Shown here one piece after another: positions 1,100-62,053 of a DNA stretch of 64,000 nt. Position 1 is the first letter of the stretch; the number at the start of each line of letters is the position of its first letter. Below the pieces are notes generated by a model. The model worked only from the letters and a program-made list of their open reading frames with translations, made no database searches and was not told the DNA's origin. This DNA is from Ectocarpus siliculosus (Eukaryota > Sar > Phaeophyceae > Ectocarpales > Ectocarpaceae), in contig FN648539.1 of the NCBI GenBank assembly GCA_000310025.1, forward strand, positions 82,368-146,367, read 5' to 3'. A program made the translations under genes and the position numbers.

Positions 1100-4000
1100 T
1101 TAAGCGCCACATTTTTTACCTTGTCGGAGAACCCTCACAAGCGCCACAATCAATCTCAATACACAGGTGATCACGACAAATTGCACATACATGCCGATGA
1201 CGAGACAACCGTCACGAAAATGACTCTCGTAATTCGGTGGTGTTTCGGCGAGAGACATTACCCCAAGATGTGCCCCGCTGATTAGTGACCGACTCGCGCT
1301 TTCAAAGTCCCATTGACGGCAGAGCATCGTAATGTGCGAAGTTGCAAGAACTACCGAAGTGCGCTCATACAGCAAAAGCGTCGCTGCATTGATCGTCAAT
1401 ATTCCGGTTTTGGTGTTCGGTAGGACCTGTACAAATGGTAGTGTGCGGTAGTTAGTACTCGTAAGAAGTTGGTCCCGAGAAGAAACCATGTGTAAGTCCC
1501 GCCCACGTTTCGTGAATACAAGCAACAACCGGGGTATTCTCGAGAAGACCCGCCTCAAAAGCACACCAAATGAATTTCTCCCGAAGTTCCGTGGGAAGGG
1601 CTACCACAGTACTTCAACTCAGGGGCAAAGGACAAGGTTAAAACACCACTTACATCCTGAAGCAGTGCCATTGTGGACACATGCAGCGCGCCAATGTCTG
1701 CCTCGTACTTATCTCGCTGCTTCTTGAGTTGCATAGCCTGCAGAGAGAAGCATGCGATACTTTTCCGTCAGCCATTCTATTCTAACTCGACACGATTTTC
1801 AAGTATTCGTCGCCAACAATTTCTCCATCGTCGCAGCACATCGCATGACTTCACACGCCTGGATCGATCTGTTTCACCATCATCCGCATCGCAATAGCTC
1901 CTTGCCTACGTCGATCTCCACAAGCGTGGCAACAGGTCACAAAACATTTGACACAGCCTTATCCCAATCCGTCACGAACGTGCAAAACACGTTATCATGT
2001 CTTCAGAGAGAAAATCTCGAGCCGGACTTGAGAAACTAGCTCGAGCTGCTGAGACCCCCGCTCTCACCGCTTACCGTTTCCGCAAGTGAACCCTGGCACG
2101 GCATAAAGCCCGCAAAAAAGTTCAGACGTGCTGGCACACACACCTTCTCGCGCTTGAAACGTCGTGTCAACGACCGCTCCAGATTGCTTTTCTCCTTCTC
2201 TGCTCGCTGCAGCGCGGCGCTAAGCGCGCCCGCCTTTAACTCTAGCTCTTCCATTCGGGCGTGATCTTCTGACTTGGGCCGCCACGATCGGTCGCCATCA
2301 TACTTTTCTCCCTCACTACATCGACTATCCATGCCACCTTCCCACGCTGGTGCACCACCCCTTCCGCCTGCGCCAGGAGCAGTTTCTGTTCTCCAACCGC
2401 CGAGATTGCCCGCCTGCACACCAACATTGTGTCGCTGATCCACCTTCAATTCCACGATGCCTACCTCGTCAGTTTGAGAGCCCGATGTGGCCCGTGGTAA
2501 TGTGGCCTTGGCGGTGGTTAGCGATCCTGTAGTAGTACGGGATACCGCTGTTGTAGAATCTGTCGGCGGCTCTGCTGTGGTCTGCGAGCCTACGGTTGCC
2601 ATGGTCAAAGTCAGCGACAACGGCGCCGTCCGCACCAAGTGATCCGCCAACGCAGACCGGAAACGTTCCATGGATGACTCAACATCATCTCGCAACACTT
2701 CCATCGCAGCCGCAGCGTCAGCCTCCGCCTCGCTGGGCGCCCACGGGACCATAGCGCTGCTCGCCTCGTTTCTCAGCGCGGTCGTTAATCCCACCAAGGG
2801 CGACAGCACGAGTGCCTGCCGCCCGTTCCCTTTTGCGTCTGCGCCAAACAAACAGTCAGCTTGCTCGCAAAGAGACACCAACGCAGTGTGAAACAAGCGC
2901 CTGGCTGCAGAGAAGGCGGAAGCCCACGCGGTGGCTCCCACTTGAGCCACTGCCGCCGACGCCAACGCGGCCGAGACTCGTCTCTCTGCTTCATCCTCCA
3001 AGACCACCGTCACCTTAGGAGATGCTACGATGCTGCTCCCGTCGGCACCGGAGTCTGCCAGATCCACTCCACAGGCCGGGCACGCAGCGCCCACTTTATT
3101 GAGAATGTTGCTTTCCACCACTACGCCCTCTTCCGTGGAAGACGATGCGATCGACGCGATTGTGTTATCCGACTGACAAGCTTTGTCCAGTCCAACAGGT
3201 TCTCGGCTGCGCTCGCCAGAGCATTCAGACAACCCTGTGTCTGTGGTGCCATGCAACTGTTGTTCCTCCTGCCGCTGTTTTCTCACCTCGCACTGCAACC
3301 TACCGCAATGTTCGAGACACGCGTGGTACATGGACCGCAGTGAAATTTTTAAGTTCAGGTTTCAATAGGCATGTGGACGCAACACGTGTGGATCGCTCCA
3401 TATGTAGCTAACGTGTTATGCCGTTGGGGCCTTCTTAACAGCACAAGGCACCTGCCGACGGAAAGGAGGAGGCGAAACGGATTAATGTGAGAACGACGCC
3501 GAACACCCCATCATCTTACTTGATGAGTTTGAAGAACCACGGGCATTAAAGCACCCACTCAATGTTGGCTCACAGCGGGTGGAATAGGGCTCAAAGAAGG
3601 TGTAGTCAGGCGTTGCAGATTGAATGCAGGTGTTGCACGGGTAACCTTAAAGTTCAGAATCGAGAGCAAACTCACTTGTGAAGCTCATCGACCATATCTT
3701 GTTGAATGGCTATTTTAAGGTTCGCCATATCCCTGGCCTTTGCGGCCCGTCTCGCCACCACATGCTCACGAGCTGCCCTTGCGTTGGCCTCCGCCTTTCT
3801 CTGGTGTTCACACAAGTTGTAGGACAATGCAAATCGGGGGAGATCAGGCTAACATGCTCGGCAATGGCGGAACTCTTTATTCACACCAACAGGATTGCCG
3901 TGCAGCGCTAATGTCGCAGAGAACACGAGTGCTGTCTTTCCGTGGGAAAACACTGCCGCCTTTCAACCAAGTGTTCAAGGACGCACCCGTCGGCTGAACA

Positions 4001-7000
4001 GGGTACACCGAGTGCTGCTGGTAAACAAAGATTGCGGCTGAACAGGGTACCCGAGTGCTGCTGGTAAACAAAGATTGACGAAAAGACGCCTCCGATGACA
4101 TCAGCCTCGCCACTACTTAATCTTCCCTCTCAAACCCTCCTCTCTTCTTCACTCGCCTGCAAACCCTCCACACAACTTTCTGCCGCAGCTCTCATTGCAG
4201 CCTGCTGCCGCGCCTCCAGCACAGCCGCAGCCACCTCTTCTCCCTTCATCACCAATGACTTCTTTGCCTCCGACAGCTCTTGCCGCAAAGAGTGTATCTC
4301 CGCTTCGTGCCCATCCCCCAACACTTTCTCGTGCTCTTCTTTCTCTTCTTGAAAAACTGTCGTCGGTATGGCCTCCGCGGCCAAGGGTGGGCCCCCTTCC
4401 ATCGTCGGGGAAGGAAGAGGCTCGACAGATTCTGTGCAACGACTGGGCTCCGTCTCTGAACTGCTACCGTCGAAAGCGGACCGTTCTGGCGAAGATGCCA
4501 CCCGCTGAAGATTTTCCAGCTCCTCTGCGCGACGTTTCCAGCGTGACACCTGAGCAAAACACATCGATAAAAATACGACAAAGACACAAGTTGAATCCCC
4601 GACTGCCGTGCGGCTAGAACTTGAATACCTCAACGCCAGGAAACACCAAACACTATCGTAAGAGTGCAAGACTAGGGGTTGAGATCCAAAGCCACCCGGC
4701 CCCAATAAGAGAAGCATGTCTTCAAATCCTCCAGGGCAAGTAACGCTGAACGCAATCGAAGCTTGCACGCGGTTGGCTGTGACTGTCGGCCAGTTATGCA
4801 CTCGCCTGTCCTAGCAGCTGGTCTATGGTGTCATTCTCGCTGTATTGCCTGAGGGCCTGAACGGTCTCCCGCAGCGTCGCCGCCTCACTCGAAAAAGAGT
4901 CTGCCTCCTCCCGCCAGGAATCCCTGCCAACGTGTACGAGATGAGAAAAAAAGCACAGGCACATGTTGAACTGGTCATCACGCATAGCAATGGGCCACTC
5001 CACGATAGTGCAACCCTTCAATGAAATTGTGTACCAAAGGACAACGTTTTCTCCGTGTTTGCTGGAACGCCTCGAGCGCGAAGCTCGTTGAGTGTCACCC
5101 CTAGCCCTTCCCCGTGGGTAGTCGCTTACCTTTCCCCACAGGCATTCCGTAGCTTGCTCTTGGTCTGTTCTAGCAACGTGCGGAGGCCGCTGGCTTCCTG
5201 CCCCAAGGTCCGTGTCTCGCGCGCCGCACTTTCTTGAACCCGCTGCAGCTCCTCCCCAAACGCCCTCTCCGCATCCACCACGTCAGTGCTCCGTCGGGCG
5301 TGGAGGGCCCCTGAGATCCTCACCACTTCGGCGCGTGAGACGGCCACTTCGTTCTCGAGCTCGGTGGTTCTTGTTGCAGTCTTCTGGAGTTCCTCAGTGA
5401 GGACGGAGCAGCGCTGCTCCAGGTGTTGCCTGCGCAGTTGATGGCAAGCGCGCAAAAAAGGTGTGGCGATGAACATAGCTAGGAATCTCTCTCTCTCTGA
5501 GTTGAACGAGGTTTGAAGTGGTGGCACTGGCCACACAACCCATCATCTAGGAGAGAGGCCAGCAACTCGGCTCGTAGATTGCAAACACTTCAGTAGTAAC
5601 CAGGACACATGGCAGCATCCGAGTTGTTCAGTTGCATCACCTTGCGAGTGCTCCATCCACCAGTAGTTGAGATGTTCTGGTCAACTCCTCTTTCAGCCCC
5701 GACGCCTTCGCCAATGCAGCCACGAGATCCTCCTCGGCCCGTGCTTGAGTTTGCGCTTCGAGTTCCCCTCGCTAATGAATGGAAACCGTGCAGGCAAGAG
5801 GTACACGTACCGGGGAAGGGGTTAGTTTGCACCGTGGACCGTAAGGACGAAGAACACCAGGTACGTACCTAGCGCCAATACCTTCTGTCGCTACCCATAC
5901 AGCATACGTCGGTGTCTTGTACCAGTCGGTGCCTCATCACGGCGGGGAAAGTATCACTGCAGAAATAGTATGGATACTAGATATACGAGAGGCGGCATCA
6001 CTACTGAGTCGGGGAACAGTTGGCCGTAGGGAATGTTGGTCAAATCTTGCAGTGTCACCGGTCACCTGTCACCTGTCACCGCTTGCCTCATACCTGATAC
6101 CATGTCACGGGGAAGCAGCAGCATTAGCGTATTTTTATTTTTTCTGGCAATGAAGTCATAGCGTTTAGATGATCAACCTGTATTTCTACGGTTCTCCGAG
6201 CAGCATACGGCGATATATCTCCTGTGGGAAACAGGCTCAACAAGACAGTTCGGTGCCCATCTTTTGTATGTGACAAAATACATAGGCTGGCGGTGTAGAC
6301 TATGCGTAGTCTACCTGTGTACTTACAAGTAATTCATTTTACAAATTTCAGGTCCACCACAAACTTGTGAGCACAAATACGAACGAGAAGGCTAGCTCAC
6401 CTGGTCCAACTGGCGCTGCAGAGACCTCACCACAACATCTTTTTGTTCAATCTGAGACCGAACGATCACCAGTTCGTTGGTCAGCAGCGCCACTGTTGAT
6501 GCCGTCTCATGGTCTCGGTCAGGTGTGGGGTGCCGGTGCCTTCGACGTCGGTCGGTACGACGCTCGTGATCGGCAGCGGAATCGGTGTGACGATGGTGTC
6601 GTTTCCCCTGATGTCTTGCTACCCGTTCTGTGGAGCGCTCCGTCGCACAGCTGGACGAGGAGGAATAGATTCGGGTGGTTACGTCCGCCACTTCGCGCCC
6701 GCCTAGACCAGCCTCGGGGTTGTCGACTACAGCAGTGGGAACGCTGGTGTCGACTACCCGACTCCAACCTACGGGGCGCCAAGGGCGTGCTGTATTCGAA
6801 TAGGCATCATCACGTGGACTTCGTGGGACGTAGTGATGTTTTGTCGGAGTTGGCTCCTCCGAGCCGAAGGACACCAAGCTGGCGTCGTCTGTACGAAGGC
6901 GACGAGTGAGGATGGAGGCGGCGCGTAGTATAAGCAGTCGTATACTGTATATACAATGTATTCACGACGAGGAAACACGGGCGAAACGGAAACATTTGAA

Positions 7001-56870: not shown

Positions 56871-59403
56871 TAGGCATGACACCGAGCACCTTTTCTTTTT
56901 GCTTGTTCTCTGTCTACTTGCTTGTTGGCCGCATAAAAGTCACTAACCAGCCGGTATCCCACTTTCTTCGGAGTTGCCATCGCGACGCTCGCCCACACGG
57001 CCTGCATGTTGAGGAACACCAAACTCAACGCGACCAGCGACGCCAAGCACCTCTCCAGCCACGCGATCTTGATCGGGTATATACGCGCGATCGCGCTTTC
57101 CCCGGCCGCACTCCGAACTTAAGGGTGACCCGTACAATAAAGGCTCGAGGTTCGCAGGAGGGTCACCATGGCGTACACCACGGCGCCACGGCGGAACGCA
57201 TTCCAACGCTTGCCGATGATGTCTCGTGGACGTCCCACATGCGGTTCCTCCAAGATAAGAGTAGCGGCAGAAGAGACAGCGTTGTCCAACGATGCAGACC
57301 GCGCCGATGCCTCCTCCTTTGGGATCATGTCAATGTCTGGGCCTCGCGCCACTAAAAGCTCGACGGCTCGACCGCTAGATTCGGTTCGGCTTGCTCCGGG
57401 CCTTCACGCTGCTGCAGGACCTGCGGTCTCGACACCCGAGACGCTAGCCCGCGAACGCGCACAGGCCCTCAAGCTCTCGTGCACATCGATGATACCCAAC
57501 GACTTCAGGGTTGGGTTGCGAAGAATTTTCAGCTCATCATTCCAACGAAATCATCGCAAACGACAACGGTCCACCACACCGTGTTTTGTGTGACCTCGAG
57601 CAGGCGTCTGTCTACTACTTTCAGCTTCCCCGGGCTTTGCATGCCCCCCACGACCTGCACTTCAGGAAAATCAGCTTGCAGCCTACTTGCAACACCTGCT
57701 CACATGGTGGTGAGCCCCGAGCCAGAATTCTGGATCGCAACAGCATCGACGGCAGTTATGTCGGCGGCACCAGGCATCGACAAGCTCACCCGGCACCATT
57801 TGCCCTGGGAATCAACTGCGACACCTTCAGAATCGAACGCAGACATGTCTCCGGGCTGAACTCGACGAAAGGCTGTCTGTCACGAACGGCCCCTCAGGGA
57901 CGGGTGGCACCCCCATACCCTCAAGGTGTGTTTTCGTCCTATTCGCCGCTGGAAAAAATGTGGGGGCAGTGGCAGCTGACCGAGACTGGTCGGGCGGCAG
58001 AAAAGACGTTGGGGCTGCCTCTCCGTGGGATACTCCGGCAAGAACAGCCTTGCTACTGACATGGCTTTGGCGGAAGTTGGTTGACGATACCTCCTCGAAC
58101 CCACGTCCCCCCCCTAAAGAAGGCTGCGCAGGCTGTTGTGTGTGAGGGTGCTGATACTACTGCGCGTGCGCTTGGGTGCTGCTGCTGTTGCTGCCTCGTG
58201 CTGCGATCGGTATCCACGGGTGTCCCCAGTGCCGCGAAAATGCTACCCATACCCAGCGTGCTGAGCGGACAAAGGCTGTGGCTGGGAACCGCTGCAAGAG
58301 ACAGTTCTGCGGGGCGTGGCCTGGTTTTTCGCCCCAGAAACACCCAACAAGCTCGGCAGACGAAGACGAACCTGCACTGCCAGCCCCATCAGGCGCTTTC
58401 GCTTTCGCCGATGTATGTTGCTGAGACAGTTTGTTTACGAGCCTGAACGCGGGTCACCACGCGATTTCCCACGCTGCCTGTCTGCCAACTCACCCGTAGG
58501 CCACTCGACCGCAACATCCCGAACGATCTCAATGACTAGCTCGGGGTTGTTCGTTCAGCTACCTTGCATGTCGAGCTTGGTCTCCACCTCAAGCTTCAAC
58601 TCGGATGGTCCAAACCTGCCACAACTACTTTGCTGAAGACAGCGGCCGGACCCTTCTTCAACGCACAAGCGGAGTCGCGAAAAACACATTCAGCGCTCGG
58701 GTTTTCGAAGTACTGCTCGAGGCGTCTTTGAACAGCGTCTATCCGATCTACAGCAGTTGTCTCAGTCGTTATGGCTACTCATATACGACACCGCGGCGGC
58801 CGCAATCGAGCGCTCGAATGTAACGTCCGCCCAGCATGCATCATATTTGGCCAGAGCCTCGCGCAAGTTATCTTCATCAAAGTTCGGTGCCGTCAAAGTA
58901 GATGCGCGACAAGTTTTTCCGGATGGACTGACGCAGCAATTGAGACACAGTGAGCCGCGGGCGTTTGGTAGAGTGCCCACTGTTGCAGAGACCATGCCCG
59001 CTCGTACTCGCGGTATGGCGCATAGAAGAAACGAAAGGACGGAGCTCTCGAAAACGCATGGCCATATTCGGGCGGTTTGGGCCCATTGTCCAAGACCAAA
59101 TCGGTGAGCCCGCCCTGGATCTCACCAATCTCTCCAGCAGAACCTTGCTGAGCGCCAAGCTCCCCCTTGCCAGCAGTGGAGCGTCTCGAGGCCATCGCGG
59201 CATACGATGCCCGGGCAGATCAAGATAGCAGCTCCGCGGGAGATCAGGACAGCAGCTCCCCCAGTCGAAGCCCGTACTCAGCGAAGCGGGAAAAAAAAAG
59301 TGGAAGGATAGCTTGTACTGCTGTCGTCACGAGAAAATGTTGTTGACATTGACTGGCCCTGGTCAGTCAGCCTGAGTATCGATAACTGTAAACTTACCTG
59401 ATA

Positions 59404-61942
59404 CAGTAGAGGTCCCTGTTTAAGGCCGCAAATTTAAGGCCGGTGGCCCTTTTTAAGGCCGGTGAAATCGTCTGTCACACTTTCCTTCCTTTTTAAGGCC
59501 GCATAGGCCTTAATCAGGGTTAGTCCCTATTTAAGGCCTATTAGGGCATCCGCGCACCCTATATAAGGCCGGTTTTGGTGTGACGCACCCAGTTCTTCGC
59601 CAGCATTATTCAAGCCGCAACACAACCACTCTAGAGATCTACACAACAGCAATACCTAGCGCATACCCCTACCGACCCAACCAGTAGGGGCACACATGCC
59701 TTGTGCGGCTGGTGAACTGTGCCAACTGCCAGACCGTACGCCAGAAGCCCCTGACGGCCACCAATGTCACGGAGGGTGTGGCGGCAGACTGCACGGACTG
59801 TGTGGGGAACAAGACCAAGATGCGGAGTTCGAAACCGCCCGCATCTGCTATGCGTGCATTGCCTCCAAGCAAAAGCAAAAGGCTAGTGATGCCTCCACAG
59901 CTGGCAAGGGCTCCACAGCTGGCAAGGGCAAGCGCAAAGGGTCAGCCACGGAGAGCGGAGACACGGCAAGACCAAAAAAAACGAAACCAGCCAACCACCC
60001 GGACATGACTGGTTCGCGGACGCGGATGGACATCGGCACCAAGATGGAGATCCTACGTCTGCTGGACAAGGGCACGCGGACGCAGAAGTCGATCGCAGAG
60101 CAGTTCAACTGCGGGGAGCGCACGGTGCGTAACGTCAAGGCCGAGCGGGCGAAGATAGAGAATCAGGCCGCCAAAACTCGCAGCAGCGCCACCTCAAGGA
60201 AGAACCTTCGGGCGGGGGATTTTCCCGAGGTATGCTAGAGTATGTATTGATTTTTTTTTTGCAGCCTGAATTGTACCACTCGGTGTTGATTTTTTTTTTT
60301 TGTCAGCCTGCCGTTTGTACCACACTCGGTTGATATCGCACTTTCAAGAAAAATCGCAGTGCTTCATGTGTGCAAATAGCGACCCCCCCCAAAGCAGTCT
60401 GGATTATGCACTGAGATTATGCTTTGCGCGGTCAACTGCATTGGAAGCACCACGAACATTTTTCATCTGATGCACCACCCCACACACGACAAAAAAAGGC
60501 ACAAACATATTTAAATTTATACACATTTTTTTCCACTGCTCATTTTATCTGCATGTGCATTTTGGCTAGGGTGGCGTGAACTTTCGTGCTGGTGCGTAAC
60601 TTTGTGATATTATTCATCCGTGAAAGCAGTACCGTTCTAACCCGCGCACCACCGATTTGAACCCTGTGGTGCTTGCTGCTGACTTTGTACAGTTGGATTC
60701 TTTAGTTTTGGGCCTCGTCAACAAGGCGCGGATGGCGAAGTACACCGTCACCGGCAACGTTATCCGATCGTTCGGCCGCTCTGCCAAGGCCACCCTGTTG
60801 GGCTCGGAAAAAACGACTGACTCCGTGAGGAAGAGGCTCGAGGACTTCAAGGCTGGCGACAAGTGGAGCAAGAACTTCGTGAAGCGCAACGACCTCCACA
60901 GCCACAAACTTCATGGGACGGCCGGCAGCGTCGACCACGACCGCATCAAAGAGGGCATGGAGGAGGTCCGCGCTGCTTGCGAGAAGTACCCGGCGAGGAA
61001 CATTTTCAACGTCGACGAGACCGGCATCCAGTGGAAGCTCATAGCCAGGAGGACGTATCTTGCCGCGTTCGAGGCACTTTCGTCGCACTTCGGGGCTCTG
61101 GAGGCGGCAGCGGAGGGGAGCGGCAACCATGACGCCGCTTTCCACATTCAGAAGGCCAAAATGGCAATGATCGCAGCGCATGGTTCGAAGGCAACGAGGC
61201 AGACAGACATGAGGCAATTTTTGTAGACTCGATAGGCGCAAGGGGGGAGGCATCAGTTGAGTGTGGTTCTCACGCGTCCGGTGTCATGTCCAGTTTCATC
61301 CTTGTATTTTCAACTTTCGTGTGCCGTTGTTAGTGTATCTGGGGGTGGAGAGGTCGGGCTGTTCGATTTTTGTGTCGACTTTGTGTTCGACGGGTAAGCA
61401 CCAGTTGGTCAGTCGGTGCAACATGTGCATTTTTCCATGGTTGTTGTGTTGTGCAGATCGTCGGACTTTTTTTTGCTGTGGGCGTCCTCTCATTCTGATC
61501 AGGATTGGCAGTATTATTGTCGACCTTCACAGAGGGTGTCACTCGATGAGATATGTATGTACTTCGCACGTACCAAGTGAAATACTTCTAATATACTTCT
61601 ACATATTTTCTGTTGACGTCAGCTGCGGCAGCAAGTAATACATATTTGGAAATATGCAACATCATTTTTTGTCACGACTTGTGCGGCAATATTTATCTTT
61701 CATGTATAGCGTGCTTCCTGCGAGCCTTCAGACAAGTTGGGGCCCGCCACCGTCCCGAAAGGCTTGAGTGCAGCATCAATATTCCTCAATAAGGCCGGTA
61801 TCGGCCTTATTGAGGAAAACTCAATCCTCTATAAGGCCGGTACCGGCCTTAAACAAGACCCGTTCCCAATAAGGCCGGGTGCCCTATTTAAGGCCGGTTA
61901 TTTCGTCTGTCACAGGGCGGCCTTAAACAGGGACCTCTACTG
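59404..61942 (+). mobile_element. pogo/Tigger-like DNA transposon, internally deleted
   Basis: Terminal inverted repeats of 26 bp are identical: 59404-59429 (CAGTAGAGGTCCCTGTTTAA...) and 61917-61942. TA target duplications lie at 59402-59403 and 61943-61944. Both subterminal regions carry many AAGGCCGG motifs in either orientation (at least five on each side), likely transposase-binding or regulatory sites. The element encodes a two-exon protein (separate entry) and sits inside the 5' LTR of the gypsy element; without it the LTR sequence is continuous with other copies. Perfect ends suggest recent insertion. Confidence 0.9.
59696..61226 (+). CDS. Tigger/pogo transposase with N-terminal Cys/His finger, catalytic core deleted
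   Basis: Two exons, 59696-60229 and 60693-61226, each exactly 178 codons and in phase, joined by a GT-AG intron (GAG|GTATGC; TTTGTACAG|TTG), predicting 355 residues. Residues 1-54 contain Cys 3, 9, 24, 28, 36, 51, 54 and His 22, 25, 33, a PHD/RING-like zinc-finger pattern. About residues 103-156 is a CENP-B/pogo helix-turn-helix (GTKMEILRLLDKG, KSIAEQFNCGERTVRNVKAE). Exon 2 holds the second HTH (KWSKNFVKRNDLHSHKL) and the first catalytic block FNVDETGIQWKL. After RRTYLA the frame runs straight into a C-terminal tail, so the remaining DDE core is missing without a frameshift. Such a product might bind element ends but could not catalyse transposition. A host-tamed or dominant-negative role is speculation. 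Confidence 0.75.
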
Positions 61943-62029
61943 TATCAGGCAAGGCCTAGGACCAGAATTCTCCCCACTTGGCTTGGGGGGACTGGTGGGT
62001 TCACCTGTTTGGTGATTGCAAACAGACCT

Positions 62030-62053
62030 TAGGGTTAGGGTTAGGGTTAGGGC
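62030..62053 (+). repeat. Interstitial telomere-type repeat (TTAGGG)x4
   Basis: Four exact TTAGGG units sit inside the LTR of the 54-62 kb element. The other two LTR copies lack them at the matching place (after AAACAGA), so they arose in this copy. Confidence 0.95.

Follow-up and report, generated by a model that had tools for sequence, protein, structure and literature searches.

A deleted, probably non-autonomous pogo-type element of Ectocarpus siliculosus and the predicted PHD-like finger of its family

The element described here lies in a 64,000-nucleotide stretch of the Ectocarpus siliculosus genome, and we use the term window for this whole stretch. Our analysis suggests that the element is very probably a pogo-type transposon copy that has lost internal sequence and with it its autonomy, having arisen through faulty gap repair and then moved in trans, and that its open frame is a by-product or at most encodes a KP-like repressor. 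The features that this reading draws on are given below in positions of the window.

59402..59403, strand not applicable: left TA target-site duplication
59404..59429, forward: left terminal inverted repeat, 26-bp, starting with CAGT
59422..59575, forward: left subterminal array of six TAAGGCC repeats
59696..60229, forward: exon 1, 178 codons from the ATG to a GT donor, aligning with exon 1 of relatives
59696..59857, forward: predicted PHD-like finger, N-terminal, residues 1-54 (C3, C9, C24, C28, H33, C36, C51, C54)
60041..60157, forward: CENP-B_N helix-turn-helix, residues 116-154 (E=1.5e-5, above the cut-off)
60230..60692, forward: predicted intron 1, GT...AG
60693..61226, forward: fused exon 2/exon 3, 177 codons and a stop
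60828..60905, forward: HTH_Tnp_Tc5-like stretch of exon 2 (17.4 vs 22.2 bits, E=0.0043, below the cut-off)
61014..61016, forward: codon of the first catalytic Asp (NVDETG), kept
61066..61074, forward: deletion junction between exon 2 and exon 3 (9-nt match overlap, 3 nt of exact microhomology)
61075..61223, forward: conserved C-terminal tail from exon 3, SSHFGALE...MRQFL
61782..61931, forward: right subterminal cluster of the TAAGGCC repeat in both orientations
61917..61942, reverse: right terminal inverted repeat, 26-bp
61943..61944, strand not applicable: right TA target-site duplication

The inverted ends of the element (59404-61942) are perfect over 26 bp and have TA on either side, so that the sequence at 59402-61944 agrees with the original prediction on this point; the first 25 bp of the left repeat are free of mismatches in all four other near-identical copies (L009-L012). 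The insertion site is palindromic (CCTGA-TA-TCAGG), which extends the inverted match to 37 nt at 97% identity (59393-59429 / 61917-61953). This site (window 59397-59403 / 61943-61949) is the 12-bp palindrome CCTGATATCAGG with the duplicated TA at its centre. The left TAAGGCC array is likely a transposase-binding array, a putative role. Other subfamilies have a different repeat in the equivalent subterminal place, with AAGGCCGG in the window element and TAGTGCCGG in L050 and L055 (in L050 the clusters lie at about 781-921 and 4294-4408), which suggests that the DNA-binding domains change in step with the ends. A telomere-like interstitial repeat of four TTAGGG-type units is found at window 62029-62052, 87 bp downstream of the element.

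The gene itself was read correctly from the start: the two exons are open, in phase and exactly 178 codons each (59696-60229 and 60693-61226, stop included), and the first 54 residues of exon 1 hold the seven Cys and three His that had been counted. The equal length is a coincidence, the exon 1 of the closest relative having 170 codons. The exon borders match those of the relatives, also across subfamilies, and this agreement supports the predicted intron 1. The CENP-B_N helices are confident in an AlphaFold2 model. The catalytic triad is incomplete, the first Asp being present and the other two gone, and residue 7 of exon 2 is Gly in the window copy alone, the other copies having Asp.

We searched the genome (189 Mb, 492 contigs) for relatives and found a complete three-exon plan in which exon 1 encodes the finger and the CENP-B helix-turn-helix, exon 2 a second helix-turn-helix and DDE_1, and exon 3 the conserved tail. 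The finger occurs in exon 1 of every subfamily examined, so the fusion of a finger to a transposase, as originally proposed, is a family-wide trait and not frameshift noise. In relatives of the same subfamily (C3, C121, C368, C34) exon 2 is longer and encodes DDE_1 (matched at E=4.1e-28 in L017), and the tail closes a third exon; the catalytic spacing was DD31D in all five relatives measured. None of the four full-length relatives of the window subfamily is an intact autonomous copy: exon 1 of C3 is interrupted by a stop, C121 and C368 are frameshifted, and exon 1 of C34 was not found. In another subfamily with different ends (L049, L050, L058 and others) all three exons are open. CENP-B_N scores above the cut-off in the window protein (P0001) and matches 9 of 14 exon-1 proteins at E<=1, and the Tc5 helix-turn-helix of exon 2 is below the cut-off both in the window protein and in a relative.

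The full-length relatives fit pogo in their TA duplication, inverted ends of <=40 bp and DDE_1 domain in the DD29-36D range. Judged by these ends and domain matches, the full-length family consists of pogo-type, TA-inserting transposons with CENP-B, DDE_1 and DD31D; the pogo part of the first Tigger-like assignment stands, and Tigger itself is not established. The accessible text of a pogo survey (PMC7386202) likewise gives the superfamily (Tigger, pogoR) TA duplications, short inverted ends and lengths of several kb, together with CENP-B_N and Tc5-like helix-turn-helix domains and a DDE_1 domain in the DD29-36D range. The present family differs in having a PHD-like finger at the N-terminus as well as a long third exon, and the window copy in having lost two of the three catalytic residues. 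The section of the same survey on structural variation has five types of DNA-binding domain, and such a finger is not among them (PMC7386202). The available parts of two earlier reports mention pogo-like elements in Ectocarpus siliculosus (PMC3145265) and count almost 12,000 Mariner-Tc1 copies in Ectocarpus, mostly non-autonomous (PMC12477816). Searches of viral contigs found no relative of the DDE exon and none of the finger.

Comparison of full-length and deleted forms, which had been proposed as a check, shows what the window copy has lost. Relative to L017 the deletion measures 1301 bp and takes in the last part of exon 2, the whole of intron 2 and some 145 codons of exon 3; the junction is in frame, and the first catalytic Asp lies outside the deleted part. 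The claim that the core was cut from exon 2 in frame is thus right on the frame and on the loss of the core, but the cut also took intron 2 and most of exon 3. Five copies of the window form are near-identical, matching at 99-100% from end to end, and the seven copies compared share no similarity in their 390-bp flanks. Since near-identical copies occupy unrelated sites, the deleted form has moved. L013 (C23) is of the window type except in the junction zone, which carries the junction of L014 (C33) and four of six nearby changes; we rejected it as an independent deletion because its junction is common to L014, and the mosaic is the pattern that gap repair using another copy would leave.

We noted three further arrangements among the derivatives. 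In L010 (C73) a window-type copy stands head to head with an L028-type derivative, DDE-less and from another subfamily, the two occupying 222-2068 on the reverse strand and 2403-4947 on the forward strand with a few hundred bases between them. Seven near-identical copies (L062, L063, L064 and L068 on C1, C27, C13 and C4, and others on C3, C14 and C22) have the finger fused in frame directly to the exon-3 tail, giving about 109 residues from which the helix-turn-helix is gone. An open fragment inserted in intron 1 of L014 (C33) has a cluster of Cys and His that presumably resembles the end of a LINE reverse transcriptase.

The most probable course of events would then be that the gap left by excision was repaired faultily, exon 2 becoming linked to exon 3 at a short microhomology, and that the deleted form, having kept both ends and the putative binding repeats, was moved by the transposase of another copy. 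If the exons are transcribed and spliced, the product would consist of the finger, one clear and one probable helix-turn-helix and the tail; it might occupy the end repeats without cutting, acting at best as a weak inhibitor of the KP kind. The open frame may be explicable without selection, and it was on this open frame that the original prediction based its case for a retained function.

We therefore catalogued derivatives in which codons of the finger or helix-turn-helix are joined to the exon-3 tail, scoring the best 150 candidates per search, and found many deletions of the same gene with differing break points. With shared junctions counted once, 17 of 30 distinct coding-to-coding junctions are in frame, or 19 of 32 when two donor read-throughs are added. 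Nine of the 30 (three in frame, six out) were read from coordinates only, so that introns or indels could shift them, and one of the three in frame, C2:3383435, has conflicting frame lengths; the out-of-frame L022 may break in intron 2, and without it the count is 17 of 29. The 30 leave out junctions from intron 1 to exon 3, which are possibly spliced (L040-L043; C16:7039934, C132, C368), L044, the in-frame donor read-throughs L032 with L033, and L039, the 5'-truncated or tail-less forms L021, L023 and L046, short non-coding forms, and the unclear C19:306479 and C21:781190. A sequence-based subset (14 of 21 in frame) was not used, being biased by six stretches picked for a suspected in-frame fusion.

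The expected value depends on how the deletions arise. Random deletions in four full-length genes keep the frame in 33% of cases, and deletions at microhomologies of 1, 2, 3 and 4 bp in the same genes keep it in about 34, 37, 39-41 and 42-45%, above one third because codon composition is periodic. All 14 junctions measured have exact microhomology of 1-5 nt, with a median of 3, and the typical 3 nt suggests a null value of 40%. Against one third, 17 of 30 gives P=0.007, against 40% P=0.048 and against 45% P=0.14, and the in-frame excess of DDE-less junctions is suggestive at best. The step from an open product to a retained function is not supported, in-frame junctions being expected in 33-45% of cases at 0-4 bp of microhomology.

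Frame damage in other deleted copies, which the original prediction would have taken as the mark of an ordinary relic, is present in part: exon 1 is frameshifted in two of the five copies of the window form and the remaining three are without such damage. The five full-length copies used for comparison were chosen from open ones, so the absence of frameshifts in them is an unfair contrast. Selection among the deleted copies did not emerge either, as four in-frame lineages together have 20 N : 7 S changes that postdate the deletion, a ratio that agrees with neutrality (P=0.43) and rejects a dN/dS of 0.2 (P=0.0004). The five recent open full-length copies look equally neutral at 16 N : 5 S, and the N:S test is thus weak, as it cannot tell functional from useless copies. 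In-frame survival by itself is weak evidence of function. Counted against the by-product reading are the 17 of 30 junctions, above one third, borderline at 40% and unremarkable only at 45%; the dN/dS of the window element vs L014, 0.46 in exon 1 and 0.11 over 74 exon-2 codons, along a path that includes time before the deletion; and the finding of no intact copy among the full-length relatives of the window subfamily.

These same observations bear on a KP-like trans-repressor, which we consider unlikely, though it survives best of the alternatives. The DDE-less protein would bind the subterminal repeats of intact copies or poison their multimers, the copies encoding it would be favoured or tolerated, and recurrent products of finger, helix-turn-helix and tail across subfamilies would be its trace. 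Several multi-copy derivative lineages do have open fused frames, and the in-frame count exceeds both one third and 40%, but the excess vanishes at the 45% null, two of the five window-form copies are frameshifted, and purifying selection after the deletion is not detectable, recent full-length copies being alike in this. The out-of-frame L067 type also ranks among the most numerous forms, and in some derivatives (L074) only half of the finger is left. The accessible part of a study of P elements (PMC12393704) names the retention of DNA-binding parts and the loss of catalysis as properties of repressors, both of which apply here, and says that some derivatives bind the ends without cutting. 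KP and other deleted P elements, as that part describes them, likewise have an internal deletion that leaves a DNA-binding product and likewise spread in trans; they belong to an unrelated superfamily, and repression is reported there whereas here it is a putative role read from sequence (PMC12393704).

The family is set apart by its finger. In an alignment of 18 finger sequences C3, C9, H22, C28, H33, C36, C51 and C54 are invariant and C24 is present in >=90%, and the ligand order is C4HC3, as in PHD fingers. A finger profile run against the PDB matched the PHD fingers of KDM5A and KDM5B best, and weakly (E 0.0029 to 0.014). Of the two models named at the outset, PHD is the better, yet none of the 18 sequences matched the Pfam PHD family, and zf-RING-like was matched by six at a best E of 0.72; the best Pfam match was Znf_SCAND3 (four of 18, best E 8.2e-4, below the cut-off). 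Because the order and the KDM5 matches stand beside this absence in Pfam PHD, we call the finger PHD-like and not PHD. Its two-zinc cross-brace fold is a prediction only, and two AlphaFold2 models have no confidence in the finger (means of about 43 and 46.5). The last six zinc ligands are spaced as in the KDM5A and KDM5B fingers (2kgg, 2ma5), C-x3-C / H-x2-C / C-x2-C, whereas the first pair is C-x5-C, an unusual spacing for a PHD finger. PHD fingers typically have an aromatic residue before the last ligand pair, where the present finger has Ile, Leu, Val or Met. We rejected finger dN/dS as proof of constraint (0.14 for window vs L028, with dS saturated at 1.96, and 0.89 for window vs L017), and also a 2353-codon frame in C21 with a finger match, which is a run of masked N.

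The cysteine-rich domain of piggyBac is C-terminal, whereas the present finger is N-terminal in a transposase of another superfamily, where DNA binding by it is hypothetical. The consulted section on piggyBac describes that domain, likewise in a transposase, as a PHD-like cross-brace finger that binds a motif repeated at the ends of the transposon (PMC8086355), and the parts available to us of further sources report PHD or PHD-like fingers in Rehavkus (PMC6446971), in Ginger1 (PMC2836005) and in the partner protein RAG2 (PMC4411706). Our literature search found no described pogo transposase with a PHD-like finger, and the accessible parts of two pogo surveys contain nothing on PHD. One may imagine, and we regard this as a long shot of nearly the same order as the repressor, that DDE-less mini-proteins of finger, helix-turn-helix and tail, or even of finger and tail, arise repeatedly as trans-dominant regulators of the family, the finger docking on the end repeats or reading histone H3. 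If this were true, shrinking copies would be a brake on their own family, and reading of H3 would steer insertion.

It is quite improbable that the finger is an EsV-1-7 motif, as at the N-terminus of TcMar-2_Ec32, instead of a PHD-like finger. EsV-1-7 motifs are abundant in the genome (all matches listed, the best 150 of 880 candidates, are above the cut-off) and absent from 14 control genomes, and the accessible part of PMC12477816 describes their proliferation in brown algae and reports one fused to the transposase of TcMar-2_Ec32 in Ectocarpus. However, PF19114 had no match in the window protein P0001, in sets of 8 and of 18 family members, or in 14 exon-1 proteins (among the 25 of 28 families listed), and the finger profile finds the KDM5A/B PHD fingers instead. 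By its published description TcMar-2_Ec32 is likewise a brown-alga Mariner-Tc1 element; it measures about 4.4 kb, has many non-autonomous derivatives, and its transposase carries an extra zinc-finger-like domain at the N-terminus. The present finger differs in having no EsV-1-7 match, and the two are set apart by that description only (PMC12477816). Within what we could consult, this Ectocarpus fusion is the nearest published report to the finger-pogo plan.

Domestication of the open deleted copy as a host gene for a DNA-binding protein, as was also suggested, has almost no probability: the window copy does have an open frame with DNA-binding domains and predicted splicing, but the near-identical copies sit at unrelated sites, each inside the element's own intact ends, in a pattern of mobility, there is no single conserved locus, and the change at residue 7 of exon 2 is private to the window copy.

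The window copy, as a deleted pogo-type element, is ordinary, and its loss looks like the usual shrinkage of transposons. What is noteworthy is its family, whose pogo-type transposase starts with a PHD-like finger: it has many copies, at least one subfamily contains full-length open ones, and about thirty deletion derivatives can be told apart in a single genome. In the literature searched we found no report of a plan in which a PHD-like finger precedes a CENP-B-type helix-turn-helix and a pogo core. The family offers a test of the role of a zinc finger in a transposase, whether binding of the end repeats or reading of chromatin, and it is a natural data set on whether deletion derivatives that keep the frame are favoured, a question long argued for P elements.
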